From a virus, in IMG/VR virus record IMGVR_UViG_3300012936_000004, positions 25,415-89,414 of that record: 64,000 nt of DNA. One strand, given 5' to 3'. The notes beneath the pieces were generated by a model. That model made no database searches and had not been told where the DNA came from. It saw nothing but the letters and a program-made list of their open reading frames with translations. Every line of letters begins with the position of its first letter. The stretch's first letter is position 1. Of the stretch, positions 40,516-44,815 are shown in pieces. The position numbers and the translations under genes are program-made.

Positions 40516-40605
40516 TGGCGGACAGTCAGGGATTCGAACCCTGGGAAGGCGTTAACCTTCGTCGGTTTAGTAGACCGGTGCTTTAAACCTCTCAGCCAAC
40601 TGTCC
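40516..40605 (-). tRNA. tRNA-Ser (anticodon reads ACU)
   Basis: Class II tRNA, 90 nt with encoded CCA and G73. Acceptor GGACAGT/ACTGTCC, Ser-type D arm and long variable arm, T arm intact. The anticodon loop is CTACTAA where the E. coli Ser-GCU loop is CTGCTAA, giving ACU, an A34 rarely seen in bacteria. The top anticodon-stem pair is C-A. Confidence 0.85.
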
Positions 40606-40829: not shown

Positions 40830-40916
40830 TGGTACCTCCTGCCAGACTCGAACTGGCACGCTATATTCAGCGACAGATTTTAAGTCTGTTGTGTCTACCT
40901 ATTCCACCAAGGAGGC
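40830..40916 (-). tRNA. tRNA-Leu (UAA)
   Basis: Class II; acceptor GCCTCCT/AGGAGGT, A73, encoded CCA; anticodon loop CTTAAAA; long variable arm. It reads UUA, frequent in this AT-rich genome. Confidence 0.9.
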
Positions 40917-40917
40917 T

Positions 40918-41002
40918 TGGCACAGGTGGCGAGATTCGAACTCGCTCAGCTTACGCACTGGTTTTGGAGACCAGCATACCTCTCCAACTGTATCGCACCT
41001 GC
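40918..41002 (-). tRNA. tRNA-Trp (CCA) with an enlarged variable loop
   Basis: Acceptor GCAGGTG/CACCTGT, G73 as in bacterial tRNA-Trp, encoded CCA; anticodon stem-loop CTGGT-CTCCAAA-ACCAG. The variable region is 12 nt (TGCGTAAGCTGA) instead of the usual 4-5. One base separates it from tRNA-Leu. Confidence 0.85.
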
Positions 41003-42983: not shown

Positions 42984-43298
42984 TTAGTAATAATCACCAT
43001 AACCAGCACCTGGACCGGCACTGTAGTAAGGATTATTATAGTTTGGATCATCCATACCGTCAACGGCAGTAACTTCAGGTACATAATGCTTGAGCATATT
43101 TTCTACACCCATTTTTAGTGTCATACTACTACTAGCACAGCCTGAACATCCTCCTTGTAATAGCACTAATACACGACCAGATTCTACATCAAAGTCTTGT
43201 AATTCGATCATACCACCATGTCCTGCAACTGCGGGGTTAATGTTTTCCTCGATAATAGTGCTTATTTGTTCAATGATTTCTTCTTTTGTACGTTCCAT
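42984..43298 (-). CDS. NfuA/NifU-like Fe-S scaffold protein
   Basis: 104 aa from MERTKEE, chosen because a late box lies 5 nt upstream and a longer frame runs into a tRNA. The core matches the NifU C-terminal domain: INPAVAGHGGMIELQDF and GGCSGCASSSMTLK with the CxxC pair (51, 54). It builds or carries [4Fe-4S] clusters. A Gly/Tyr/Asn-rich tail is extra to the family. A late gene in a unit with the Asn-anticodon tRNA and the AsnRS-like gene. Confidence 0.85.
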   Translation of the reverse strand: MERTKEEIIEQISTIIEENINPAVAGHGGMIELQDFDVESGRVLVLLQGGCSGCASSSMTLKMGVENMLKHYVPEVTAVDGMDDPNYNNPYYSAGPGAGYGDYY

Positions 43299-43312: not shown

Positions 43313-43414
43313 TGGCTCTGGGGGGAGGATTCGAACCTCCACGGTAAATATATTGCAGTATATTAAACCACACGATAAACAGTCGTGCGTGTCTACCATT
43401 TCCACCACCCCAGA
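43313..43414 (-). tRNA. class II tRNA with Asn anticodon (GUU)
   Basis: 102 nt with encoded CCA. Acceptor TCTGGGG/CCCCAGA with U1-A72 and G73, as in tRNA-Asn. D arm GTGGAAATGGTAGACAC as in tRNA-Leu. Anticodon stem CACGA/TCGTG with loop CTGTTTA, nearly the tRNA-Asn loop (CTGTTAA), giving GUU. Very long variable arm of 30 nt (TGGTTTAATATACTGC...). T arm GGAGG/CCTCC. Position 37 is U, normally a purine. It looks like a chimera of Leu body and Asn identity elements. Confidence 0.8.
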
Positions 43415-43422
43415 ATATTGGG

Positions 43423-44265
43423 TTAAGCCGCTATGGCTAACTCTTGTTTTTTATCTAATGCCGCAATCATACGTGTCATACCAATGCCACCGCCAACTCT
43501 TTGGAAGAAGTCAAACTCTAAGAACTTTTCTAGTTCTGCTTCTACTCTATCTTTACCAAATAGTTTGTAAAGTAGTTCAGCATATTCTCCGTCTACAATG
43601 CTATGAAATGTATCACGCATCATATCTACATCACAACTACGTTCTGCTGATCCTATAGTTTCCATGCCTCCTAATATAACATCCATCTTCTTGGCAGTTA
43701 TACCATCGTCATTTCTACTCATATTCCAGAACGGACTTGTCATTTCAGGAAAGTTTGTTATTAATGTTGAACCAAAACGTTCAAACATTTTAGTTTCATG
43801 GGTAGCATCCATTTCAATATTTTTGCCTATTTGAAAATGATCTTGCCATTCTGCATAAGTCTTTTCTGTAAGCGGATCAAAGCCTAAGTATTCACATAGT
43901 TCATACTCCATTGCTTTTAGATCATCTACACTACCTGGCATTTCAAATTCGAACATTGGAAATATTATATCGTGTCTGCCTGGAATAGCATTAGGCTCTT
44001 GTCTATAAGACGTTGACACACAAAAAAAGCCCTTCGAATCGGGCTTAGTAAGTAATTCATGTTCTAACCACATCTGTCCCGTTTGCGGTAGAGGCCATAC
44101 TTCGCCTGCATAATTGTATGTTGCTACATTGAACGGATCTTCACATGCGGCTAAGATACTTAAACGGTTTTGAGTATGTACTTCTTCAAATCCTTTGTCC
44201 AAAAAAAAGGACCTCAAAAGGCCTACTGTGTGTGTAAATTTTGTTGGTGATATTAATTGCGTCAT
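43423..44265 (-). CDS. AsnRS/AspRS-like class II synthetase core without anticodon-binding domain
   Basis: 280 aa. Class IIb catalytic motifs: motif 2 SYRQEP...GRH...FPMFEFE (Arg88, Glu90, Arg97-His98), the ILGGMETIGSAERS segment, and motif 3 VGGGIGMTRM with Arg265. The N-terminal OB-fold that reads the anticodon is absent (full AsnRS is about 460 aa), as in archaeal asparagine synthetase AS-AR and EpmA. It could make asparagine, charge the adjacent tRNA, or modify another target. The tRNA lies 8 bases downstream. SD AAAGGAG. Confidence 0.7.
   Translation of the reverse strand: MTQLISPTKFTHTVGLLRSFFLDKGFEEVHTQNRLSILAACEDPFNVATYNYAGEVWPLPQTGQMWLEHELLTKPDSKGFFCVSTSYRQEPNAIPGRHDIIFPMFEFEMPGSVDDLKAMEYELCEYLGFDPLTEKTYAEWQDHFQIGKNIEMDATHETKMFERFGSTLITNFPEMTSPFWNMSRNDDGITAKKMDVILGGMETIGSAERSCDVDMMRDTFHSIVDGEYAELLYKLFGKDRVEAELEKFLEFDFFQRVGGGIGMTRMIAALDKKQELAIAA
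44022..44046 (-). terminator. terminator-like hairpin inside the AsnRS-like gene
   Basis: AAGCCC-gattcgaa-GGGCTT followed by a run of seven U on the minus strand, about 220 nt into the coding sequence. It has the form of an intrinsic terminator and could limit read-through to the tRNA and NfuA-like gene. Confidence 0.45.
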
Positions 44266-44392: not shown

Positions 44393-44815
44393 TTATAACT
44401 TTTTAATTCTATTTGTATGACGTCCGCCTTCAAACTCTGTGTTGAGAAATGTTTCAACAATATTAGTTATCCAAGATGGATCTGTTACTCTTGCTCCTAA
44501 GCATAATATATTTGCGTTATTATGTTTTCTAGTAAGCATTGCTGTCTGTGTATCTTTACAGAGTCCTGCTCGTATTGTTGAATAACGGTTAGCCGCTATA
44601 CTCATACCAATTCCTGTACCGCAAACAAGAATGCCAAAGTCAGCACTTGTATCGGATACCAAACTACATACATGTTTAGCGAAATCCGGATAATCACAAC
44701 TATCTTCACTATAACAACCACAGTCTACAATGATATGTTTTTGATCTTTTAACCAATCTACTATTGCTTGTTTTATTTTGTAACCTCCATGGTCACTTGC
44801 TATTGCTATATTCAT
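44393..44815 (-). CDS. rpiB: ribose-5-phosphate isomerase B
   Basis: 140 aa, family length. SDHGG (7-11), catalytic Cys65 in VCGTGIGMSIAANR, and His98 in TRKHNNANILCLGAR. It interconverts ribulose-5-P and ribose-5-P, feeding PRPP and nucleotide synthesis. It overlaps uvsY by 4 bases, so it is expressed with recombination genes. Confidence 0.92.
   Translation of the reverse strand: MNIAIASDHGGYKIKQAIVDWLKDQKHIIVDCGCYSEDSCDYPDFAKHVCSLVSDTSADFGILVCGTGIGMSIAANRYSTIRAGLCKDTQTAMLTRKHNNANILCLGARVTDPSWITNIVETFLNTEFEGGRHTNRIKKL

Follow-up and report, generated by a model that had tools for sequence, protein, structure and literature searches.

The window, a stretch of 64,000 nucleotides of viral DNA, carries a class II tRNA with the anticodon GUU directly behind the gene for a stand-alone synthetase core that resembles asparaginyl-tRNA synthetase (AsnRS), and the enzyme and the tRNA very probably form a functional unit. 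One would not expect a conserved class II tRNA-Asn; the normal bacterial class II tRNAs are those for Leu, Ser, Tyr or Sec. Judging from sequence, we see about an even prospect that the phage mini-AsnRS charges this RNA as an orthogonal class II tRNA-Asn of its own and that the tRNA then decodes AAU/AAC codons.

Read on the minus strand from 43414 to 43313, the tRNA gene runs TCTGGGG TG GTG GAAATGGTAGA CAC G CACGA CTGTTTA TCGTG, followed by the 30-nt variable arm and by GGAGG TTCGAAT CCTCC CCCCAGA G CCA (Table 1). All pairs are formed in the acceptor (7/7), anticodon (5/5) and T (5/5) stems, the D stem is of the 3-bp Leu type, the anticodon loop is CTGTTTA, and the T loop is TTCGAAT. An earlier note on this DNA had described a Leu-type class II body with a 30-nt variable arm that bears Asn identity elements, namely a GUU loop, U1-A72 and G73; the description holds for the window tRNA, the architecture is conserved in its relatives, and the three elements are invariant among them. 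The U37 that the note regarded as unusual is present and typical of the family (72/88 distinct sequences). The synthetase core directly upstream of the tRNA was overlooked in that note. ARAGORN placed a tRNA gene at identical coordinates with a shifted anticodon, which resulted in a tRNA-Asp(atc) call, and an Rfam scan with the default fast filters missed the gene. With permissive filters, the scoring of the Infernal type that had been proposed gave 47.9 bits over the whole model of the Rfam tRNA family (gathering score 29). The gene fails as a bacterial class I tRNA-Asn, having an arm of 13-37 nt across the family instead of a short variable loop, and U37 in the window instead of A37 (t6A), which occurs in only 13/88 sequences. 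It also fails as a tRNA-Leu, with G73 and GUU in place of A73 and a Leu anticodon, and as a tRNA-Sec-like molecule with a longer acceptor stem (8/4, 9/3 etc.), with 7 bp in the acceptor and 5 bp in the T stem.

Table 1. Coordinates of the tRNA, its parts, the synthetase core and the downstream gene in the window.
Feature	Position	Strand	Remarks
Stand-alone class IIb synthetase core, AsnRS-like	43423..44265	(-)	280 aa; stop 8 nt before tRNA 5' end; PF00152, PHROG 29758
Class II tRNA-Asn(GUU)	43313..43414	(-)	102 nt, CCA encoded; 109.6 bits with family model R1
Acceptor 5' strand	43408..43414	(-)	U1 at 43414; partner strand 43317-43323, A72 at 43317
Anticodon GTT (G34 U35 U36)	43378..43380	(-)	U37 next, at 43377
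Variable arm, 30 nt	43341..43370	(-)	Covarying helix; arm 13-37 nt among relatives
Discriminator G73 (43316) and encoded CCA	43313..43316	(-)	G73 in 88/88 distinct sequences
NfuA/NifU C-terminal-like gene	42984..43298	(-)	Downstream neighbour, not a conserved part of the pair

Covariation, a further check named in the earlier note, was assessed in an alignment of 36 distinct relatives, with slid alignments and 500 shuffles as controls. Pair cells were paired in 95.9% of cases compared with 37-60% in the slid controls, and 22/30 pairs had changed on both sides, a result matched by 0/500 shuffles, which rules out a chance fold. The acceptor, D, anticodon and T stems kept 100% of their pairs amid abundant compensatory changes, with changes on both sides in 6/7 acceptor pairs, 5/5 pairs of the anticodon stem and 5/7 pairs of the variable-arm helix (helix 4). 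The elbow bases are kept in the family. Among the distinct tRNA sequences found downstream of the enzyme, where the anticodon was left unconstrained bar a small tie-break, GTT, U1-A72 and G73 were each present in 48/48. The invariance of GUU rests on this set of 48 sequences and not on the scan with the tRNA alone described below, as the DNA pattern used there fixes U33 and GUU. Position 37 was free in that scan, and the 88 distinct sequences had U in 72, A in 13 and C in 3. CCA is encoded in 59 of the 88 and is absent in the P-SSM2 type.

GCAA at the tip and TATTTA in the 3' strand are common to the long variable arms (L006-L085) and absent from the short arms (13-17 nt), which looks like the gain or loss of a stem-loop within the arm. 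In the tRNAs of loci L019, L023 and L062, the T stem (GCATGG/CCTGC) contains a bulge of one base. On a Methylophilaceae-binned contig (L120:6077-6170), the 3' acceptor strand of the tRNA does not pair fully and ends in ACCACCA, as if the end of this tRNA had been exchanged.

The 280-aa core matches the Pfam family PF00152 (tRNA-synt_2, D, K and N; E = 4e-15) and PHROG 29758, whose function is unknown. Against the curated asnS family TIGR00457 it reached 29.3 bits with a cut-off of 342.6, and membership of the curated AsnRS or AspRS families was rejected because the scores are below cut-off. An AlphaFold (AF2) model of the core had a pLDDT of 91.7, and a Foldseek search with this model ranked solved AsnRS structures best, with the Asn-adenylate-bound 1x54 at E = 3e-17 and a TM score of 0.77 over the query; a profile search with the enzyme family also returned AsnRS first. 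Motifs 2 and 3 of the class II synthetases are present and their motif residues are invariant. The anticodon-binding domain, N-terminal in AsnRS, is missing (280 aa compared with 434 aa in the best PDB match, of which the catalytic part only was aligned). The residues of the amino-acid site are QTGQMWLE in the family, QSSQLYLE in AsnRS and QSPQLYKQ in AspRS, whose lysine binds the Asp side chain; the site resembles that of AsnRS, unlike AspRS. Cellular and phage enzymes have 73 conserved positions in common, among them those of the unusual SILAACEDP loop. In the motif 2 loop the two groups differ (Q89, A93), and these differences were rejected as a strict marker of the tRNA, since P-SSM2, L094 and L120 retain Pro at 93.

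Relatives of the core are encoded on about 600 viral contig stretches. A class II tRNA followed the enzyme in 77/86 loci (48 distinct tRNA sequences), and the association was also evident from the other side: when viral contigs were scanned independently with a DNA pattern that describes only the tRNA, 114 loci were detected; 106 of them had enough upstream sequence, and the co-oriented core immediately preceded the tRNA in 106/106. This linkage is specific to the enzyme, which rules out that the tRNA merely has a tandem-tRNA neighbour. A conventional short tRNA-Asn was not seen in any of about 200 viral loci. Enzymes accompanied by the tRNA group into one large clade of marine phages, with a few losses, in a phylogeny of 106 enzymes (SH-aLRT 92); the two genes are adjacent in 25/32 sampled members of this clade. 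On some contigs within the clade an intact enzyme occurs without the tRNA, including a 187-kb phage record; these records may be incomplete. A tblastn search located the core in the cyanophages P-SSM2, P-SSM5 and P-SSM7, where it is annotated as 'tRNA ligase'. In P-SSM5 and P-SSM7 a tRNA-Asn of 85-86 nt is annotated after the enzyme, and in P-SSM2 the family tRNA occupies 162083-162171, with PSSM2_198 and PSSM2_200 on either side. The RefSeq record NC_006883.2 puts the tRNA-Asn PSSM2_199 at 164094-164179, coordinates that look stale. The family tRNA is the sole tRNA in P-SSM2 and P-SSM5 (252-kb genomes).

Upstream of the pair, the window encodes a ribose-5-phosphate isomerase B (44393-44815, minus strand), and an IscU-like gene comes after the pair in 15 other phage loci. 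The tRNA-Ser at 40516-40605 (minus strand) has the anticodon ACU (A34), unusual in bacteria, and related loci gave five 'Ser act' calls. The tRNA-Trp(CCA) at 40918-41002 (minus strand) has 85 nt and a 12-nt variable region (TGCGTAAGCTGA), longer than in usual class I tRNA-Trp.

An RNA with the Asn identity set and a protein with an AsnRS-like fold and site, two independent lines of evidence, converge in one tightly linked pair of genes; the simplest account would be that the core charges the tRNA with Asn and that the tRNA decodes AAU/AAC. The asparagine identity set in bacteria consists of the anticodon and G73 (PMC9976931), and U1-A72 is the usual end of bacterial tRNA-Asn (PMC4206432). The earlier note had left three options for the tRNA, Asn decoding, mis-decoding and a non-ribosomal role, and the adjacent synthetase core favours the first. 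We infer that core and tRNA are transcribed together and the tRNA is then cut out, after which the core would make Asn-AMP and attach Asn to A76. Because it lacks an anticodon-binding domain, the core would read the acceptor end (G73, U1-A72), and perhaps also the long arm. For the same reason GUU is unlikely to be kept for the core, and decoding or host enzymes probably keep it; in a tRNA whose Asn would be delivered to AAU/AAC on host ribosomes, GUU would be retained because the ribosome reads the anticodon. The class II body and a non-purine at position 37 would shield the tRNA from host charging and modification, and the same features could guard against tRNA-cutting defences. For phage tRNAs, a link has been drawn between changes in the anticodon loop and evasion of host nucleases (PMC10264068). 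The outcome would be an asparagine supply of the phage independent of the host. Decoders of ANN codons normally have A37 with t6A, and U or C at position 37 in 75/88 sequences is evidence against decoding. The intact enzyme without the tRNA in at least one phage record, that of 187 kb, also speaks against this account.

Outside the phage clade, homologues of the core occur in cells, mostly in Patescibacteria and also in Pasteurella atlantica, Midichloriaceae, Chlamydiae, Dependentiae and others; two huge phages are likewise outside the tRNA-bearing clade. In a search with the family model, the class II tRNA-Asn was absent from the cellular genomes with the core and from the two huge phages, and 20 of the best class II model matches there, considered as cognate candidates, were ordinary tRNA-Leu except for one tRNA-Pro. 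The cellular proteins are 50-63% identical to the phage core, with active-site residues common to both, and in several unrelated lineages they are encoded next to pyrF, pyrE-type and pyrD genes. Eleven core-bearing genomes (L123, L113, L114, L124, L100, L137, L141, L150, L158, L163 and L166) had matches above cut-off to CarB in 0, PyrB in 1, PyrC in 1 and dihydroorotate dehydrogenase in 9, compared with 14, 14, 11 and 14, respectively, of 14 control genomes. This pattern hints at an unrecognised route to dihydroorotate in core-bearing cells; the early pyrimidine genes may simply have been lost in reduced genomes, for which the choice of these 11 genomes leaves room. A full AsnRS is encoded in addition to the core in 6/11, and a canonical AsnRS role of the cellular core is unlikely where the two coexist. 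The core is rare in the family of P. atlantica (2/61 genomes). In about 15 loci (L010, L011, L016, L019, L022, L024, L062, L066, L069, L079, L008 and others), a relative (34-48%) of an unusual phosphoribosyltransferase of the P. atlantica operon is encoded close to the phage enzyme.

Since the tRNA-less cellular homologues lie in pyrimidine operons and often coexist with a full AsnRS, the chemistry of the family may not be aminoacylation. The leading alternative, which we consider somewhat unlikely, is that the core is mainly an enzyme of the pyrimidine pathway, making for example dihydroorotate or a precursor from asparagine, bicarbonate and ATP, and that the tRNA serves as a carrier, a regulator or an Asn source and not as a decoder. 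The gene neighbourhoods, the missing CarB, PyrB and PyrC, the common active-site residues and the phosphoribosyltransferase relatives are all consistent with it. However, this phosphoribosyltransferase is absent in P-SSM2, P-SSM5 and P-SSM7, the tRNA is confined to the phage branch, and the invariant GUU, U1-A72 and G73 of the linked RNA are left unexplained. In a more specific form, doubtful in our judgement, the family is a new asparagine-using class II branch that replaces CarAB, PyrB and PyrC in cells and that became linked, in marine phages, to a private non-standard tRNA-Asn with a role tied mainly to that chemistry and not to decoding. The original chemistry may have concerned asparagine in pyrimidine synthesis, with the phage branch having turned to tRNA charging or kept both.

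We regard as improbable that host enzymes charge the tRNA (AsnRS, or a non-discriminating AspRS with GatCAB) and that the core acts afterwards on the tRNA or on Asn. The tRNA does present the full Asn identity set of the host type, including the U1-A72 recognised by GatCAB (PMC9976931, PMC4206432), and with a core that lacks the anticodon-binding domain the invariant anticodon could serve host synthetases; the strict pairing with an AsnRS-like core would remain unexplained, and the class II body and U37 should be poor for host recognition. Loading with Ser or Leu owing to the class II body, with mis-decoding of Asn codons, appears very improbable. A long arm and G73 are identity features for SerRS and allo-tRNAs whose anticodons are foreign receive serine (PMC7609411), and the body is Leu-type, but G73 is an antideterminant for LeuRS (PMC9976931), the variable arm differs in sequence and in length (13 to 37 nt), and the partner with the Asn-type site is always adjacent. 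A decayed, functionless tRNA-Leu, the outcome the earlier note had set against its own reading, has in its favour a D-arm body in common with the phage tRNA-Leu at 40830-40916 of the window, but is practically negligible and already refuted by the fully paired acceptor, D, anticodon and T stems, their compensatory changes and the invariant anticodon.

If the charging pair is real, abundant marine phages would come with a full charging system of their own for a single amino acid, this natural, tight and minimal pair could serve as a compact orthogonal tool in genetic-code work, and the reason why phages carry tRNAs would become testable in cultured phages such as P-SSM2, with its sole tRNA. The cellular homologues pose a separate and testable question about the start of pyrimidine synthesis.

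The two-gene pair is seemingly undescribed: in the literature covered, mostly open full text with few subscription papers or preprints, neither a class II tRNA-Asn nor the enzyme-tRNA pair was found to be described, and records and papers carry only the annotations 'tRNA ligase' and 'tRNA-Asn' for its members. The cyanophage 'tRNA ligase' T4-GC 194 (PMC3037559) and the annotated tRNA-Asn of P-SSM2, P-SSM5 and P-SSM7 belong to this enzyme-tRNA family, and the papers found on those genes make no remark on the pairing, the class II body or the AsnRS-like nature. Bacterial class I tRNA-Asn(GUU) has the same GUU, U1-A72 and G73, whereas the phage tRNA has a variable arm of 13-37 nt, a Leu-type D arm and mostly U37; class II tRNA-Leu has the same body, D arm and variable-arm architecture, whereas the phage tRNA has GUU, U1-A72 and G73, not A73. 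The core resembles AsnRS (TIGR00457; 1x54, 2xgt) in its class IIb fold, motifs 1-3 and QxxQxxLE site, and differs from it in the missing anticodon-binding domain, a score of 29 bits against a cut-off of 343 and the unusual invariant SILAACEDP loop. Odd tRNAs are known from cells in the form of selC* tRNA-Cys with its dedicated CysRS* and of allo-tRNAs (Mukai 2017, reviewed in PMC7609411); like the phage tRNA they are structurally odd, with a dedicated synthetase in the Cys case, but they are cellular and have tRNA-Sec-like acceptor domains, unlike the ordinary 7/5 Leu-type body found here. Huge phages also encode synthetases, which have been proposed to charge phage tRNAs (PMC7162821); those enzymes match curated families of the host type, whereas the phage core described here is minimal and appears beside one putatively private tRNA.
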